Below the pieces are notes generated by a model. That model had not been told where the DNA came from. It saw nothing but the letters and a program-made list of their open reading frames with translations, and did no database searches. The position numbers were made by a program, and so were the translations under genes. Source: an uncultured Methylophilaceae bacterium (GTDB lineage Bacteria > Pseudomonadota > Gammaproteobacteria > Burkholderiales > Methylophilaceae). From it: a stretch of DNA of 6,993 nucleotides. This document shows, in pieces, positions 1-6,993 of the stretch (positions are counted from its first letter, which is position 1; every line of letters starts with the position of its first letter). Location: positions 1 through 6,993 of the forward strand of contig CALKDJ010000014.1 of the NCBI GenBank assembly GCA_938084195.1. Direction: 5' to 3'.

Positions 1-1541
1 AACACACATTTAAAAAATGGAGTGAAATTGATTTTGTTGTTGTAGGCCCCAGAGGCATGATGTGTCTTGAAGTTAAAGGTGGGGGGGTTGAATTCAAAGA
101 TGGTATTTGGAGATTCACAAATAGATTTAGTCAAATTGAAAAGAAAAAAGAAGGACCTTTTGATCAAGTTCGTGAGGCACATTACTCCTTATTAAAAATG
201 TTTAAAAATGATAATGTTTTTCAAGATATTTCTACTGGTAGTTCAGAAAAAGAATTTAGTTTGGACAGAAAAACAAATACAGGCTGGGGAGTAATCTTTC
301 CAGACATTACCTGGACAAATTATTCACCTGAAATGCCAAAAGAAATTATATGTGATGAAAAATTTACTAAAGACCCAGATAAATTCAAAAAATATATTAC
401 TAATTTATATGATTACTGGTTAAATAAAGGTAAGAAATTTCCTGATTTAGATCCTGATAGTCTTATTTTTAAAAAAATTACACAATACATAAGAAGTGAT
501 TTTCAAACCTCAATTTCACTAAAAAATAGATCAGATAAACTTTATCAAACTATGGTTACTCATACAGAAGGCCAGCAACAATTGATTGAAGGCCTTGATG
601 CTAATGATAGAATTATTTGTGACGGTGGTGCGGGAACTGGCAAAACATTAATTGCAATTGATACCGCTCGGAATGAATTGAATAAAAATAATAAAGTATT
701 GCTAGTATCAAAAGATAATATTTTTAATGCTTATTTAAAAATGCAAATAGAGCCTCAGCCTTCTCTAAAAATCTGTACATCAGCTGAGCTAGAAAAAAAC
801 AAGGAAAATTTTAGCAATAATAAATTTGATGTCCTAATCGTTGATGAGGGTCAGGATTTAATGCAAATGGAAATTTTAGATACCTTTGATCAATTAATTA
901 AAGGAGGTCTTGAAAAGGGCCGCTGGCGATTTTTTATGGATAGCAATGCACAATCTGGAATACTCGGTAGTTTTGATCAAGATGCTTTTAGCTTCTTAAA
1001 ATCTAATACGCCTACAAGTTTTACTTTAAAAAATAATTGCCGAAATACGAAGCAAATTGTCGAGGAAGCGCAATCAACGACTGGAGCTTACATTGGTGAA
1101 ACTGTTATTCAAAATGATGGACCAAAAGTAGTCTACCTTGATACTAATGAAGAAAATGAAGCAGCCCTATTAACAAAAAAAATTGAGAGCTTAAGAGATG
1201 AAGGCATTAGTCTTGAGGATATAGCAATCTTATCTCCAACTAACTTCAGTGATTCTTCATGTATTAAATTAACGCCTAAATGGAAAAGTAGAATACATAC
1301 GATTGATGAAATTAATGTAACTTCACCTCCTGCTTCATCTATTTTATTTAGTCAGATTAGTCAATTCAAGGGATTAGAAAGAAAACATATTATGCTCATT
1401 GACACTAATTTTTTTACCGATGATAAACTATCTCGTTCTTTATTATATATAGCAATGACCCGAGCCAACATTGAATTATGGGTTGCAGCTAGGCCTGAAT
1501 TTAATAGGATGTATATAAATCTTCAAAAACAAAATATGTAA
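1..1541 (+). CDS. NERD nuclease-UvrD-like SF1 helicase fusion, 5'-truncated by window edge
   Basis: The reading frame is open from base 3, so the gene starts upstream; 512 residues are visible. The first ATG at 57 is internal, because the conserved NERD core straddles it: E-I-D-F-V-V-V at bases 24-44 and L-E-V-K at 66-77. These supply the Asp and the Glu-x-Lys of a PD-(D/E)XK-type active site. Numbering from the ATG at 57, the NERD Gln is Q37 and a full SF1A helicase core follows: Walker A GGAGTGKT 190-197, Walker B DEGQD 263-267, motif IV NNCRNT with R329, motif V QFKGLE 436-441 and motif VI YIAMTRA 464-470. No membrane segment or signal peptide is seen, so it is probably cytosolic. Known for the family: NERD is a nuclease-related domain often fused to helicases. 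Inferred: it is the DNA-cutting arm of the drmAB operon that follows 9 nt later. Nuclease activity is predicted only; the domains are clear. Confidence 0.93.
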   Translation, partial: HTFKKWSEIDFVVVGPRGMMCLEVKGGGVEFKDGIWRFTNRFSQIEKKKEGPFDQVREAHYSLLKMFKNDNVFQDISTGSSEKEFSLDRKTNTGWGVIFPDITWTNYSPEMPKEIICDEKFTKDPDKFKKYITNLYDYWLNKGKKFPDLDPDSLIFKKITQYIRSDFQTSISLKNRSDKLYQTMVTHTEGQQQLIEGLDANDRIICDGGAGTGKTLIAIDTARNELNKNNKVLLVSKDNIFNAYLKMQIEPQPSLKICTSAELEKNKENFSNNKFDVLIVDEGQDLMQMEILDTFDQLIKGGLEKGRWRFFMDSNAQSGILGSFDQDAFSFLKSNTPTSFTLKNNCRNTKQIVEEAQSTTGAYIGETVIQNDGPKVVYLDTNEENEAALLTKKIESLRDEGISLEDIAILSPTNFSDSSCIKLTPKWKSRIHTIDEINVTSPPASSILFSQISQFKGLERKHIMLIDTNFFTDDKLSRSLLYIAMTRANIELWVAARPEFNRMYINLQKQNM

Positions 1542-1550
1542 TAGTAAATT

Positions 1551-4500
1551 ATGGATAAAGATAAAATATTTCAAAAAGACCGAGAGTTGTTTATAGAGTA
1601 TCTCGAGCAACAGCTTGTAGGGCCTTGTGAAGGTGAAAATGAAGGTTTTTATAAAGACTCAGCCAACCAAGTACCTTACCAAAGGTATGTTATGGGGACA
1701 CTATATCCGCAAGTTATTAGTGAAGATGAATATATTAATGAGGAAGCATCAACACAAGAAATAGAGAATGTATCTTCAGATCCAGATGAGGTTGATGACA
1801 CACCAATGAGTATGGTTTTCCAAAGACTTCCAGCTTCAATTGGTATGAGCTTTTATGTTAAAGATTGTAAAGAAATTAAAATAGATGTTTGGGGTGCAGA
1901 ATACAAAAGAGTTGACAAAGATTTTATAGTTAACCAAGAAAGCTTACCTGAAAGTAATCGAATTCTTAAGAAAAGAATGGATAGTTATCCAGAGTATATT
2001 CGAATTCCATTAGCGACAAAAAATGAACCGAAGACAATACTTTCAAATAAGACTGAAACAATCACATCTCTAAATGGTAAAGCAGAGCTTAAAGTTATTT
2101 GGAGGTCATTGGGTGAGGGTTCATTAATCACTATTTCAATGATAAACCCATCAAAACAAGAAGTGGATGCAAAATTAGATGCTGAAAATTGTCTATACCA
2201 AGTTGGTTTTTGTTGCCGTACGTCTTCAGGAAGTATTGCAGAGTATCCCTCAATGGATAAATTGTCATATGACGATGAGGAGCTTGAGCTTGCCTTACAA
2301 TACAAAGAAAATATAAATTATGGTATCGGTCACGGTTGTTCTGTAAATTGGGATGAAACAGAAAGCTCTCCGAGTTTTATAGAAACAACTTTTATGCCAT
2401 CACAGGAAGTTAAACCTCAAGATTTTGAAGCTGCCGATGATTATAAAAATCTAGATGTTTTATCTCTAAAATACTTGAGTCAAGAAGAAATTGACAAAGT
2501 AAATCTAAATACTCAATTAGAAAAGTTTATTGACAGTTATGAGGAGTGGCATAAAAAAATATGCAACCAAGTTGTAGATAAAAAATTTATTAAAGCAAAA
2601 GAAAGAGTTATAAACAGGATTGCGACCGCAATTTCTAGAATGAGAGATGGCATTTCAATATTAAAAAATGATTCAAAGGCATTACAAGCCTTTACTATGT
2701 CAAATCAAGTCATGTTGAGACAGATGGTTCACGTTGAATTGACTAAGTCTGAAGAAATAAATCCTTACAAGCAACCAGATTATCAAGAATATAAAACTTA
2801 TGCGTGGCGTCCCTTCCAGCTGGCATTTCAATTACTAATAATCGAGTCACTCGTAAATGAATCCAGCCAAAATAGGGATACTCTGGACTTAATATGGTTT
2901 CCAGCTGGTGGAGGAAAGACTGAGGCATATCTTGGCGTAGCTGCATTTGAACTTATTTATAGAAGGCTCAAATTTGGCCAAGAAGGAACAGGTACTGCTG
3001 TTATCACAAGATACACTCTTAGACTATTAACCTCACAACAATTTGAAAGATCAGCAACTTTTATTTGCGTATTAGAAATGCTCCGTAAGAAAGAAAAATT
3101 ACAAATGCTAGGGAATGATTCTTTCAGCTTAGGTTATTGGGCAGGTCAAGGAATGACTCCAAATACTTACATAAAAGCTAATGAGAAATATGATGTTATG
3201 TTGGATGAAGAGTCTCCAAAAAACTCTTTTGTACTTCAAAAATGTCCTTTATGTGGCACATCTATTATTCCCAAAACTAGATCAGAGCAAGAAAGTGATT
3301 ATGGTATTAAAGCGACGGATAACTCTTTTAAATTCAATTGCCCTTCCCAAAGTTGCGATTTACATCAAAGTATTCCAATCTCAGTTGTTGATGAGGATTT
3401 ATATGAAAACCCGCCTAGCTTTCTTATAGGCACCATTGATAAATTTGCAAGGCTTGCCTGGGATAATAGAGCAAGCAATATATTTTGTCCTACCAAAAAT
3501 AGAGCCCCCTCTCTAATCATTCAAGATGAGTTACATTTAATTTCGGGACAATTAGGAACCCTAGCCGGCCTATATGAGGCGGCGATAGATGTAGTCGTTA
3601 GTTCTAAGGGAATTCGTCCTAAATATATTGCTGCTACGGCGACAATTAGACGCTCAGCTGATCAAGTAAAGAAATTATATGGTAACAATGTTGATATATT
3701 TCCTCCCGCAGGACTATCTTATAAAGATTCCTATTTTTCAAAAATCTCAAAAGCTGCAAACGGTCGAATGTATATTGGAATAATGGCTCAAGGTCAATCT
3801 CCTATCCTTTCATTGGTCAATACTTCTGCAGCATTAAGTCAATCTGTTATGGATTGCGAAGGTTTGAGTGATGATGCAAAAAATACTTGGTGGACACAAA
3901 TAATTTATCACAACAGTAAAAGGGAATTAGGCAAAACAATATCCTTAACTGGAGATGATATACCAATGCGCATAGATGCAATTTCAAAAACGAAGGAAAG
4001 TAAACGAAAATTACCAAATATTCAAGAAATGTCATCTGTTATTAAAACTGAATTGCCAACCATTTTGGCAAATTTGAATAAAGATTTTGAGAACAAAGAT
4101 GCAATAGATATTCTTCCATGCACTAATATGATTTCAGTGGGTGTGGATGTTAGTCGTCTAGGATTAATGCTAATTTATAGACAACCGAAATTAACATCAG
4201 AATATATACAAGCATCAAGCAGAGTAGGAAGAAACCCGAATTATGCACCGGGGGTTGTAGTTACACTCTATTCTGCAAATGCCCCCAGAGATCGATCGCA
4301 TTACGAAAGCTTCAAACCCTATCACAACTCTTTATACAGATTTGTTGAGCCAACAAGCGTTACGCCTTTTTCAGAAAGAGCAAGAGATAGAGCACTTCAT
4401 GCTGCTTTAGTTATTGTGATGAGGCATGCAGGCGGGTTAGGTGAAAATGAAGATGCAGCAAAGTTTAATCCTGATGATAAAAAAACAAAAGGGTTAATTG

Positions 4501-4763
4501 AAAGTCTAGTAAATCGCATGTCCGCTGCAGAACCTTCAGAAAAAAATGAGATTAAAATTCATCTCGATACTTTAATAAAAGAATGGTTTGATATGACAAA
4601 GTCAAAAACTCTACGATTTGAAGGTAAAAGTAAAAGTTTTGAAAGTCTACTTGTACGCTTCAATTCAAAAGAAGCTATTGCCAAACAAGGATGGCCTACT
4701 CAAGATTCCATGAGAAATGTTGATGCAGAAGCTCTGATTAGTTTGCCAGGAGAAAGTAATTAA
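1551..4763 (+). CDS. drmA: DrmA-like SF2 helicase, DISARM/YprA-family defence core
   Basis: A 1070-residue SF2 DNA helicase/translocase and the partner of the DrmB-like protein downstream. The N-terminus shows a pattern I associate with DrmA: VGP at 23-25, then P-x3-Y-x2-G-x-L-x-P at 42-53, followed by an acidic stretch near 55-80. RecA domain 1 has Walker A PAGGGKTEA at 451-459, with the GGGKTEA form usual in DrmA. A Cys pair C565-x2-C568 and another C597-x4-C602 form a likely zinc ribbon. Walker B is DELH 659-662 and motif III AATAT 694-698. RecA domain 2 has motif V SVGVDVSRLG 862-871 and motif VI QASSRVGR 887-894. All catalytic motifs are intact. The ATG at 1551 is chosen because conserved sequence begins within about 20 residues and the next Met (M48) lies inside the conserved block. 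No clear Shine-Dalgarno precedes it, so coupling to the upstream gene is likely. Known: DrmA acts with DrmB in DISARM. Role in this particular operon is inferred. Confidence 0.93.
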   Translation: MDKDKIFQKDRELFIEYLEQQLVGPCEGENEGFYKDSANQVPYQRYVMGTLYPQVISEDEYINEEASTQEIENVSSDPDEVDDTPMSMVFQRLPASIGMSFYVKDCKEIKIDVWGAEYKRVDKDFIVNQESLPESNRILKKRMDSYPEYIRIPLATKNEPKTILSNKTETITSLNGKAELKVIWRSLGEGSLITISMINPSKQEVDAKLDAENCLYQVGFCCRTSSGSIAEYPSMDKLSYDDEELELALQYKENINYGIGHGCSVNWDETESSPSFIETTFMPSQEVKPQDFEAADDYKNLDVLSLKYLSQEEIDKVNLNTQLEKFIDSYEEWHKKICNQVVDKKFIKAKERVINRIATAISRMRDGISILKNDSKALQAFTMSNQVMLRQMVHVELTKSEEINPYKQPDYQEYKTYAWRPFQLAFQLLIIESLVNESSQNRDTLDLIWFPAGGGKTEAYLGVAAFELIYRRLKFGQEGTGTAVITRYTLRLLTSQQFERSATFICVLEMLRKKEKLQMLGNDSFSLGYWAGQGMTPNTYIKANEKYDVMLDEESPKNSFVLQKCPLCGTSIIPKTRSEQESDYGIKATDNSFKFNCPSQSCDLHQSIPISVVDEDLYENPPSFLIGTIDKFARLAWDNRASNIFCPTKNRAPSLIIQDELHLISGQLGTLAGLYEAAIDVVVSSKGIRPKYIAATATIRRSADQVKKLYGNNVDIFPPAGLSYKDSYFSKISKAANGRMYIGIMAQGQSPILSLVNTSAALSQSVMDCEGLSDDAKNTWWTQIIYHNSKRELGKTISLTGDDIPMRIDAISKTKESKRKLPNIQEMSSVIKTELPTILANLNKDFENKDAIDILPCTNMISVGVDVSRLGLMLIYRQPKLTSEYIQASSRVGRNPNYAPGVVVTLYSANAPRDRSHYESFKPYHNSLYRFVEPTSVTPFSERARDRALHAALVIVMRHAGGLGENEDAAKFNPDDKKTKGLIESLVNRMSAAEPSEKNEIKIHLDTLIKEWFDMTKSKTLRFEGKSKSFESLLVRFNSKEAIAKQGWPTQDSMRNVDAEALISLPGESN
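4748..4753 (+). promoter_or_regulatory. Ribosome-binding site of drmB
   Basis: AGGAGA lies inside the last codons of drmA, 9 nt before the ATG at 4763. It is the best Shine-Dalgarno match at any junction in the window and supports the overlapping TAATG start. Confidence 0.7.
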
Positions 4764-6607
4764 TGGCAATTTATAGAAAAATTAGACGCTCTCAATATAT
4801 TTTTCCATCAGGGGTAGGAGCTCTCTATGATATTAGCGATGAGTCGATGATTGCGATGGATATTTCTAAATGGAAACCAAATTATGGGGAGAAATTAAAC
4901 TTAAAGCGTCTGGAACAGCTGCTTCGCGTTAATCACTTTAAAATGCCTGAAAGTCATAGTGATATGGGAAATAAAAAATATTCAACTGCTAAAGATAAAT
5001 TACCCTTCCTAAGATTCCCTCAGTGGTTGTTCTGTCGGTCATGTGGCACGATGGTCAAATGGACCATGCAAAAAGATATAGATAATAAGGCTGCTGTCCC
5101 TAAATGTGAAAATTTTAAATGTCAAAAAAAACCTAATCTGACACCTATGAGATATGTCATGGCTTGTGATAAGGGGCATGTCTCAGATATTGATTGGCAT
5201 TACTGGGCACATTCGTTTTCGAATAGTGGGTGCAAAGTTAAAAATAAATTAAAATATAAATCTCTAAGAAAATCTGGTGGTCCTGCATTGCCAACAGTTA
5301 TTTGTGAGGAATGTGGTTCATCTAGAGATTTGAAATATATAACCTCCAAAGACGCTGGTTTAGGCCAAATTGGAATTCATTGTATGGGAATTCAGCCATG
5401 GGAAAGATGGCCAGAGAATCCTAAATGTGATGGAGAAATTCGAGCGGTTCAAAGAAGTGCAAGTAACTTATATTATCCAAAATTAATATCCGCACTAGAC
5501 ATTCCATTTGGTCAAGACAATCCTGGCAAAACAAATGAATTAGAGCATGAAATAAAATCGAATAACTTATACAACCTGATTCTCAAAAAACTTCACAATT
5601 CTGAAGGAAATGAAGCGGCTCTAGAAGCTTTTGCTGATGAAATCGCAAAGAAAGCTAATTGTTCAATAGAAGAAGTTTTACGCATTGCAAATGAAGAAGT
5701 AGGTAATAATAAAACAGAAGAATTTTCAGATCAAATTGTTATTAATGAGGAGGAAATTTTATTCGAGGAGTGGAAAGTCCTCACTAATCCAACTAAAAAT
5801 ACCAATAAAAACTTTGAAGCAAAGGAGGAGTTCATAGGAGATATTGAATTTGGCTTCAAAGAGGTGATTGATAAGCTAGTATTAGTTAAAAAGCTCAGAG
5901 AGGTTACTGCTTTAAGAGGATTTCACAGAATTAGGCCTTCTCAAGAAGAATTTGTCCCGGTGGACTTAGGTAATAACATTAATTGGTTACCAGCTAGGGA
6001 GGTCTTTGGTGAAGGTATTTTTTTATCAATAAATGAAAAGGCAATTGATTCATGGAGTAAAAAAAATGAAGATGCAATCAAAAAGAGGCTTCAATCTATC
6101 CAAAAAAAATATGAACAAATGGAGCTTGATTTTTTACCAGAGCCCACACCAAAATTCGTACTACTTCATACACTAGCTCATTTACTCATCAGGCAGCTTT
6201 CATTTGAATGTGGGTATGCAGCATCATCTTTACGAGAAAGAATTTATGCGTCAGAAAATGATTCTCCTATGTCTGGTATTTTAATTTATACAGCAGATTC
6301 TGATGCCGAAGGATCTATGGGTGGACTCGTCAGACAGGGTTATAAAGATAGGCTTATCCCGACCTTAATAACTGCACTTGAACGAGGACAATGGTGCTCG
6401 GCCGATCCAGTTTGTAGTGAGCTGGCTGGACAAGGGATTAATGGACTAAACAGAGCAGCCTGCCACTCATGCACACTTCTTTCTGAAACTTCGTGCGTTA
6501 GTCATAACTCGCTATTGGATAGGATGCTTCTGTTGGGTAATGATGAAAAAAATCATAATTATGGTTTTTTCAGCCAGATAATCGAACAGTTAACAAAGGC
6601 TCTTTAA
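4763..6607 (+). CDS. drmB: DrmB-like DUF1998 protein, partner of DrmA
   Basis: A 614-residue protein with the hallmarks of DrmB. The N-terminus carries R-R-S-Q-x4-P-S-G-V-G-A-L-Y-D (residues 8-23). Putative zinc ligands come in groups: C91-x2-C94 with C115-x4-C120, then C135 and H139 in the C-x3-GH motif; and C181-x2-C184 with C207 and C222. A charged, probably helical middle spans roughly 255-350. The DUF1998 domain occupies about 465-600: HTLAH 469-473, then C545-x6-C551 in the C-S-A-D-P-V-C motif, C567-x2-C570, and C578 in S-E-T-S-C, ending with N-S-L-L-D-R. The start codon overlaps the drmA stop by one base (TAATG), and an AGGAGA motif sits 9 nt upstream, which fixes the start and implies translational coupling at near-equal stoichiometry. 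Known: DrmB forms a complex with DrmA in DISARM and has no enzymatic motif of its own. No truncation or lost Cys is apparent. Confidence 0.94.
   Translation: MAIYRKIRRSQYIFPSGVGALYDISDESMIAMDISKWKPNYGEKLNLKRLEQLLRVNHFKMPESHSDMGNKKYSTAKDKLPFLRFPQWLFCRSCGTMVKWTMQKDIDNKAAVPKCENFKCQKKPNLTPMRYVMACDKGHVSDIDWHYWAHSFSNSGCKVKNKLKYKSLRKSGGPALPTVICEECGSSRDLKYITSKDAGLGQIGIHCMGIQPWERWPENPKCDGEIRAVQRSASNLYYPKLISALDIPFGQDNPGKTNELEHEIKSNNLYNLILKKLHNSEGNEAALEAFADEIAKKANCSIEEVLRIANEEVGNNKTEEFSDQIVINEEEILFEEWKVLTNPTKNTNKNFEAKEEFIGDIEFGFKEVIDKLVLVKKLREVTALRGFHRIRPSQEEFVPVDLGNNINWLPAREVFGEGIFLSINEKAIDSWSKKNEDAIKKRLQSIQKKYEQMELDFLPEPTPKFVLLHTLAHLLIRQLSFECGYAASSLRERIYASENDSPMSGILIYTADSDAEGSMGGLVRQGYKDRLIPTLITALERGQWCSADPVCSELAGQGINGLNRAACHSCTLLSETSCVSHNSLLDRMLLLGNDEKNHNYGFFSQIIEQLTKAL
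6595..6599 (+). promoter_or_regulatory. Weak ribosome-binding site of the second SF1 helicase
   Basis: AAAGG lies in the last codons of drmB, 9 nt before the ATG at 6609. The match is short, but the spacing favours this ATG over in-frame ATGs at 6615 and 6633. Confidence 0.4.
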
Positions 6608-6608
6608 T

Positions 6609-6993
6609 ATGAGAATGCCTACAGAGGCTGATATGAGCCAAGAGCAAACTGATATCTATATTGAGGCGCCCTTAAATGGAAAAATCTTAGTAACAGGACC
6701 ACCAGGAACTGGTAAAACTTTAATTGCATTCCTTAGAGCTCACACAGTCAGTAAAAAAAAGGGGGGTGTTGCGATAGCCATGTTTCAAAATGTACTAAAA
6801 CAATACGCCTCAAATGCTTCAGAAAATAAATTTACTGTTTGTACGATTCATAACTGGTGGAGAAACTGGTGGATGAATTTTGCTCTAGGCTCAAAAATCA
6901 AAAGCGGAAAAAAAGGCTCAAAAGATGTTATTTTTTTACCAGGTTGTTCAGGTATGAAACGCAAAGAAGTGGATGAGTTATTTGATTTTCATA
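6609..6993 (+). CDS. UvrD-like SF1 helicase, N-terminal part, cut by window end
   Basis: An open frame begins at ATG 6609, one base after the drmB stop, and runs without a stop to the window end (128 complete codons). The N-terminus shows a Q-motif-like S-Q-E-Q (residues 10-13), then a beta strand and Walker A GPPGTGKT at 30-37, followed by L-I-A and R44. Next come a segment resembling SF1 motif Ia (about 52-64) and a T-I-H-N-W-W box near 79-84, as in UvrD/Rep-type helicases. Walker B and the later motifs would lie beyond the window, so completeness cannot be judged. It is clearly distinct from the NERD-linked helicase at the other end of the operon, which has GGAGTGKT. ATGs at codons 3 and 9 are possible alternative starts. 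Position and spacing imply co-expression with drmAB, so a role in the same defence system is inferred. An A8G6 run at 6753-6766 could be a slippage site. Confidence 0.85.
   Translation, partial: MRMPTEADMSQEQTDIYIEAPLNGKILVTGPPGTGKTLIAFLRAHTVSKKKGGVAIAMFQNVLKQYASNASENKFTVCTIHNWWRNWWMNFALGSKIKSGKKGSKDVIFLPGCSGMKRKEVDELFDFH

Follow-up and report, generated by a model that had tools for sequence, protein, structure and literature searches.

Genes of the locus

The window, which is the whole stretch of 6,993 nucleotides from contig CALKDJ010000014.1 of an uncultured Methylophilaceae bacterium analyzed here, has a G+C content of 35% and contains four genes on the forward (+) strand. These genes encode a NERD nuclease-helicase, DrmA, DrmB and a second superfamily 1 (SF1) helicase in this order, suggesting that the window contains a relative of the defence island system associated with restriction-modification (DISARM). 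According to the coordinates of the open reading frames (ORFs), the genes are separated by a 9 bp gap, a 1 bp overlap and a 1 bp gap, respectively.

The first gene (3..1541) is open at the left edge and encodes 512 residues of a protein of about 556 residues, in which a NERD nuclease domain (PF08378, 30.1 bits; cut-off 22.1) is fused to an SF1 (UvrD/Schlafen-like) helicase (UvrD_C_2, 33.6 bits; cut-off 27.4; UvrD_C, 26.8 bits; cut-off 25.6). Its catalytic and helicase residues are kept. P0001, a protein of 556 residues, is 99% identical to it, and about 44 N-terminal residues are missing from the window copy. The structure of P0001 was modeled with a predicted local distance difference test (pLDDT) score of 88.5. 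The second gene (1551..4763) encodes DrmA, a superfamily 2 (SF2) helicase of the YprA family with 1070 residues, which is identified by PADLOC (2.7e-198, followed by DpdJ with 1.3e-5 and DruE with 1e-4), NCBIfam (DrmAS, 854.2, under its cut-off of 950), the match to Serratia DrmA (structure entry 7s9v, E 4.9e-130) and the trees described below. It lacks the long N-terminal part typical of class 1 DrmA. The third gene (4763..6607) encodes DrmB, a DUF1998/MZB protein with 614 residues, which is identified by PADLOC (8.9e-82), Pfam (MZB/DUF1998, 38.2 bits; cut-off 24.2) and NCBIfam (DrmB family, 460.6 bits; cut-off 240). The fourth gene (6609..6992) is open at the right edge, and only the first 128 residues of its product are encoded in the window. 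This fragment contains a Walker A motif and has Pfam matches that are all below the cut-off. It aligns with full-length SF1 helicases encoded at the equivalent place in other loci (alignment A4).

These results agree with the initial annotation, which described four abutting genes on the same strand, with drmA and drmB in the center, a NERD nuclease-helicase on one flank and a second SF1 helicase on the other, giving three ATPases in one operon. Two corrections apply to this description: gene 1 lacks about 44 N-terminal residues, and the operon probably extends past gene 4. This extension is probable because the relatives carry a fifth gene at a place that lies outside the window.

A contig of 3,721 bases (L001) from a Flavobacteriaceae metagenome-assembled genome, the assignment to which is that of one small contig, is 99.2% identical to the window over the DrmA part, and by this match the window would probably come from a member of the Bacteroidota. 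It lacks window positions 4707-4814, which contain the stop of DrmA and the start of DrmB, so that a single open frame runs through both genes. This joined frame is possibly a misassembly of a low-coverage contig. Natural DrmA-DrmB fusions are found at two other loci (L025 and L091).

Acidic loop of DrmA

The window DrmA contains an acidic loop of 40 residues (1710..1829, as calculated from residue numbers; + strand) with 12 D/E and one K/R. It directly precedes a PSSxGxSF-like motif and coincides in position with the trigger loop known from Serratia DrmA, which is assigned to residues 176-232 in the accessible part of its description (PMC9142583). A motif of this type is located at residue 93 in the window DrmA, as compared with 236-247 in L064 and L036. 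When 128 rows, consisting of DrmA homologues P0121-P0240 and the SF1 loci, were analyzed, both loop motifs were present in 84 rows, with a median loop length of 37 residues (29% D/E and 5% K/R). Among the SF1-locus rows, the window alone matched both motifs. In the comparison rows, both motifs are present in 7 of 42 others, with a median loop length of 64 residues.

Survey of DrmA loci

DrmA loci were taken from plasmids, Bacteroidota genomes and viral contigs. The genome searches, made in groups that overlap one another, gave matches in 15/296, 1/18, 11/397, 8/98 and 1/11 genomes at E 1e-60 and in 11/244 and 3/128 genomes at E 1e-120. The viral contigs gave 17 DrmA loci, and the same 17 were obtained by a scan with alignment A6. 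The phage records gave one weak partial DrmA match. When the viral contigs were scanned for the SF1 helicase, at least four loci were detected, and DrmA is present, among the matches listed, only at L097, which is on the same contig as L061. Six loci were removed (L066, the same match as L065; L071, whose DrmA is split between two ORFs; L073, which is partial; L096, L098 and L099, without DrmA), and the remaining 56 DrmA loci were scored for operon content. L085 was scored as lacking the NERD-helicase, though its first 180 codons match the end of this helicase, and a distant NERD gene of L043 was left out of the count. The searches of protein collections refer to the best 120 of 2398 NERD-helicases and the best 120 of 6311 DrmA proteins, with only the candidates sharing most words being scored.

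Phylogenetic position of DrmA

In a DrmA tree of 84 rows, nine rows bearing an SF1 helicase, including the window, and 29 other rows form one clade with a Shimodaira-Hasegawa-like approximate likelihood ratio test (SH-aLRT) support of 99. Twenty-eight of these 29 rows are homologues picked for their likeness to the window, the gene context of which is either unseen or linked indirectly, and the remaining row is L085. This tree repeats, with L085 and L091-L095 included, the analysis of a first tree of 78 rows. In a tree of 35 rows, the support for the window group is 95. The root of the DrmA tree is weak, with a support of 19-38. Approximately unbiased (AU) tests, in which the window alone is moved, reject its placement with the class 1 rows (p-AU 4e-43), with the UvrD-type rows (p-AU 1e-9) and with the class 2-like rows (p-AU 1e-4), which are represented by the Bacteroidota and viral-contig loci L031, L074, L076 and L060 and contain no Bacillus reference. 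The DrmA rows labelled Uvr do not form one clade (two changes; L062 and L040 are apart), and 9 of 11 cluster with a support of 100 in the 84-row tree. The window (854.2), L024 (812.5), L005 (854.2), L002 (876.7) and P0138 (919.4) score below the NCBIfam DrmAS cut-off of 950, as does L026 (924.0). L031 (968.3), L044 (1229.9) and L067 (1232.3) reach it.

As far as sequence comparison can place it, the window DrmA is in a clade of its own, separate from the DrmA proteins of class 1, of the class 2-like loci and of the UvrD-DrmAB loci. The AU tests and the clade support favor the proposal that the locus is a DISARM relative with a DrmA belonging to neither class 1 nor the class 2-like group.

Operon structure in the DrmA clade

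Eight loci of this clade are readable past DrmB (L002, L003, L004, L005, L024, L025, L061 and L091). The gene for the second SF1 helicase directly follows DrmB at all eight of them, and the distances between the DrmA proteins are correlated with those between the SF1 helicases (Mantel r 0.97 for the 8 loci; 0 of 5000 shuffles). The next gene at seven of these loci, all except L004 (Streptomyces), encodes a protein of about 390-580 residues of no known family, which is termed G5. The best reading of these gene orders is that the second SF1 helicase and G5 are constant companions of the class.

The identification of G5 by profile comparison is firm for L002, L003, L061 and L024 and probable for L005, L025 and L091. 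The profile of the Vibrionaceae/phage set matches that of the Bacteroidota set with E 1.4e-7, and the L025/L091 set matches L005 with E 1.7e-4. The links between these halves have E values of 0.0078-0.0084 (0.28-0.54 for L005 alone), as compared with 0.09 or more for the control proteins and the UvrD N-terminus. The G5 proteins of L005 and L025 are missed by the profile used for scoring operon content. No match was found in Pfam for seven G5 proteins, in PADLOC for three of them, or among the sequences of the Protein Data Bank for the G5 profile at E up to 5. G5 is either fast-evolving or missed by the word filter, because a search of a large protein collection with the G5 alignment gave only two proteins.

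L024 continues past G5 on the same strand into a gene for a Vsr-like protein, which shares 53% and 49% identity with the proteins annotated as Vsr in L005 and L039 respectively, and then into a gene for a C5-methyltransferase (PF00145, 328 bits). A C5-methyltransferase gene is located within the fetched stretch at 5 of the 8 clade loci and at 23 of the 48 others, with some matches being weak (63-72 bits), and was therefore rejected as a mark of the clade.

Several other features were observed around these operons. In L061 (IMGVR_UViG_2718218203_000001, 5786-17943), the DrmA-DrmB-SF1-G5 genes are located right after ORFs that resemble large terminase and portal genes by eye, on the same strand, and a C5-methyltransferase gene converges on this cassette. 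As judged from these neighbors, the cassette is a phage-borne copy. The SF1 helicase of L061 seemingly contains two DUF5710-like stretches by eye, and those of L002 and L003, both on Photobacterium plasmids, contain an insert that resembles DUF5710 with a score under the Pfam cut-off. In L004 (Streptomyces fungicidicus), the gene just upstream of DrmA (8117-11938) encodes a protein of 1273 residues that contains sigma-70 regions 2-4. Plasmid loci L005 (Deinococcus, 2180-7619) and L039 (Rhizobium, 401-5702) have a common cluster that encodes a C5-methyltransferase, a protein of 565 residues, a DUF2357/PDDEXK protein and Vsr; the two middle proteins are 47-50% identical, and the DrmAB cassettes otherwise differ. 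In L096, a viral contig without DrmA, a clade-like SF1 helicase (10001-11095, 244 bits) adjoins an unknown protein of 935 residues.

Association of the NERD-helicase with DrmAB

The exact order NERD-helicase-DrmA-DrmB-SF1 is found at 2 of the 56 DrmA loci, L005 on plasmid P4 of Deinococcus gobiensis (Deinococcota) and L024, which is from Bacteroidota by its search group. The four-gene order of the window therefore recurs in unrelated genomes. The mirrored order, UvrD-DrmA-DrmB-NERD-helicase, is found at seven loci (L026, L038, L039, L041, L042, L058 and L062). The NERD-helicase gene is present at 22 loci in total, directly before DrmA at 13, one gene before it at 2 and after DrmB at 7. It is thus a wider partner of DrmAB, and is also found beside genes for DrmE-family and DrmMII proteins. 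In L060 (viral contig, 3603-15211), the genes for MzaE-like and DrmE-family proteins, NERD-helicase, DrmA and DrmB are consecutive. In L041 (Azospirillum, 14828-15430), an annotated DarT-like ADP-ribosyltransferase gene directly follows the UvrD-DrmA-DrmB-NERD cassette.

DrmC, the phospholipase D (PLD) nuclease, is encoded at 10 of the 56 loci and never together with the NERD-helicase (0/56; Fisher p 0.0042, with shared ancestry ignored). PADLOC scans of four short downstream proteins of NERD-helicase loci L031, L076, L027 and L081 also gave no DrmC. L063 has the order UvrD-DrmA-DrmB-DrmC, and its DrmA belongs to a clade of nine rows (SH-aLRT 100), the readable members of which otherwise mostly have the NERD-helicase after DrmB. 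This locus is the clearest sign, in the gene orders compared, of the two nucleases swapping places. The proposal of the initial annotation that NERD replaces the PLD nuclease is reasonable, because the two are never found together in 56 loci. It stands for this mutual exclusion and not for a fixed place of the NERD-helicase in the clade, in which this gene precedes DrmA at 2 of the 8 readable loci, with an end fragment in L085, and the second SF1 helicase gene is present at all eight.

The distances between the DrmA proteins and those between the NERD-helicases are correlated for all 43 pairs (Mantel r 0.956), for the 23 pairs of the window clade (0.907) and for the 20 others (0.975), with 0 of 2000 shuffles in each set. 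This correlation shows, at the level of sequence distances, a long joint descent of DrmA and the NERD-helicase, although any co-moving genes would give the same signal. The sizes of the longest contigs match exactly in 20 cases between the 120 NERD-helicase and 120 DrmA hits, as compared with 0.37, and at most 3, expected from shifted sizes. One pair, P0071 (2881-4530) and P0197 (4530-7742), is abutting by source coordinates. In the NERD domain, E66 and K68 are conserved in 43/43 proteins, E17 and D53 in 42/43 (one gap each) and E51 in 40/43 (two Q and one gap). In the helicase part, the Walker A lysine, the DE of motif II and the arginine of motif VI are kept in 43/43. The best PADLOC model for the window protein is that of the reverse transcriptase (RT)-associated NERD helicase (PDLC03813, 146.3 bits), with most of the profile covered.

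Comparison with known systems

DISARM class 1, such as that of Serratia, consists of DrmD, DrmMI, DrmA, DrmB and DrmC, and class 2 consists of DrmE, DrmMII, DrmA, DrmB and DrmC. The window shares with DISARM in general a DrmA-type YprA helicase, with a DrmAS score below the cut-off, and a separate adjacent DUF1998 gene, drmB. DrmC is encoded neither by the four ORFs of the window nor, by profile, at any of the 8 clade loci, and no DNA methyltransferase is encoded by these four ORFs. The window resembles class 1 in that DrmA and DrmB are separate and adjacent, and in that the acidic loop precedes the PSSxGxSF motif. It differs from class 1 in the absence of DrmC, DrmD and DrmMI from the window, the short DrmA and its separate clade, and the presence of the NERD-helicase and second SF1 helicase. 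It resembles class 2 in the short DrmA, and the NERD-helicase is found at the class 2-like locus L031 together with DrmMII and a DrmE-family protein (79.6 bits; cut-off 80). In contrast to class 2, the window encodes neither DrmE nor DrmMII, no gene of L024 or L005 was assigned to either of them, and the grouping of DrmA with the class 2-like rows is rejected.

ARMADA, BRIGADE and TALON are defined in PMC12458937, the accessible part of which describes the systems as follows. The YprA helicase of ARMADA keeps OB-CON-DUF1998 in one chain, carries a C-terminal Vsr-type nuclease and is accompanied by BrxHII-like and PglX-like genes; a GajB-like UvrD helicase is part of type II. TALON has an ARMADA-like YprA, a NERD nuclease and TPR-CSD and TBP genes, and is largely found in Chloroflexota. 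In both the window and ARMADA, further helicases are encoded in the same operon as a helicase of the YprA family. Unlike in ARMADA, DrmA and DrmB of the window are split, the nuclease is of the NERD type, and no BrxHII-like or PglX-like protein is encoded by the four ORFs. ARMADA was therefore rejected as the home of DrmA on its gene set, and the kinship with ARMADA raised earlier is a poor match by gene content, to which this comparison is confined, as the ARMADA sequences are outside the trees. A NERD nuclease accompanies a YprA homologue in both the window and TALON. The window helicase is of the DrmA type, unlike that of TALON, its NERD domain is fused to an SF1 helicase, and neither a TPR-CSD nor a TBP protein is encoded by the window ORFs. 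TALON was likewise rejected on its gene set, its sequences also being outside the trees. Dpd and Druantia, also outside the trees, were rejected on the weak PADLOC scores of DpdJ and DruE and their other gene sets. The RT-associated NERD-helicase (PDLC03813) has the same NERD-SF1 fusion, whereas that of the window adjoins DrmA and DrmB, with no reverse transcriptase gene in the window. In the accessible part of PMC5704561, a Cas4-like nuclease is linked to a YprA helicase. A literature search gave no description of a NERD-helicase in DISARM; subscription papers and supplementary tables, which may catalogue it, were not covered.

Discussion

We consider it probable that the window covers the larger part of an anti-phage operon that resembles DISARM and belongs to a class not yet described, in which the NERD-helicase fills the role of DrmC. 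The best reading of the layout of this class from the gene orders is (NERD-helicase)-DrmA-DrmB-SF1 helicase-G5, to which Vsr and a C5-methyltransferase are sometimes added. DrmA and DrmB would form a sensing motor. If this motor works like that of Serratia DISARM, displacement of the acidic loop may allow it to load on phage DNA that has single-stranded 5' ends. The NERD nuclease-helicase would then be brought into the complex and cut the DNA, a job usually done by DrmC, and the second SF1 helicase and G5 might support loading, recruitment or target choice.

Several results weigh against this interpretation. Of the 8 clade loci that are readable past DrmB, 6 have no NERD-helicase upstream, so that it is not indispensable to the class, and NERD-helicases like that of the window occur elsewhere, the best PADLOC model being RT-associated. 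The Fisher test takes no account of shared ancestry, and neither the NERD-helicase nor DrmC is found at 24 of the 56 loci by the profiles used, in a survey in which resemblance to the window DrmA determined the choice of loci. The homology of G5 of L005, L025 and L091 to other G5 proteins is weak, an AlphaFold2 model of G5 from three sequences gave no usable fold (mean pLDDT 30.6), and the C5-methyltransferase does not distinguish the clade. A broader proposal, that the NERD-SF1 protein is a general interchangeable DISARM-like effector in the DrmC slot of several DrmA clades, and that DrmA-DrmB-SF1-G5 is an undescribed DISARM class in which the new family G5 helps to choose or hold the target, has a little less than an even chance of being correct.

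It is unlikely that two defence modules lie side by side in the window, a mobile NERD-helicase gene, as in RT-associated defence, and an independent DrmA-DrmB-SF1-G5 unit. The 6 clade loci without the upstream gene, the RT-associated PADLOC model and the location of the NERD-helicase before or after DrmAB depending on the clade agree with such a combination. The Mantel correlation within the window clade, the 20 contig size matches and the 9 bp or overlapping junctions argue instead for long joint descent. There is a still smaller chance that the window is part of an ordinary class 1 or 2 DISARM, with the methyltransferase, drmC and other genes just outside. In favor of this explanation, the window is only 7 kb long and L024 runs on into Vsr and C5-methyltransferase genes. 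The AU tests, which move the window alone and use Bacteroidota and viral-contig loci as the class 2-like rows, reject both class placements, the DrmAS scores of the window, L024, L005, L002 and P0138 are below the curated cut-off, and the 8 clade loci have no DrmC by profile. Least probable of all is an MrfAB-related operon for DNA repair. In its favor, some helicases of the YprA family act in repair according to the accessible text of PMC12458937, and each of the four gene types has relatives with a repair function. Against it, the helicase belongs to the DrmA branch (next best DpdJ), DrmB is separate, and relatives are carried by plasmids and by a phage genome or are located next to restriction genes.

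If the window represents a DISARM-like operon of an undescribed class, the finding would name a part of the DISARM-like clade, which is said in the accessible part of PMC12458937 to hold many uncharacterized classes. The NERD-helicase, which co-diverges with DrmA and is catalytically intact as judged from its residues, is a concrete candidate for the effector in DISARM-like systems without DrmC, suggesting what may cut phage DNA when the usual nuclease is absent.

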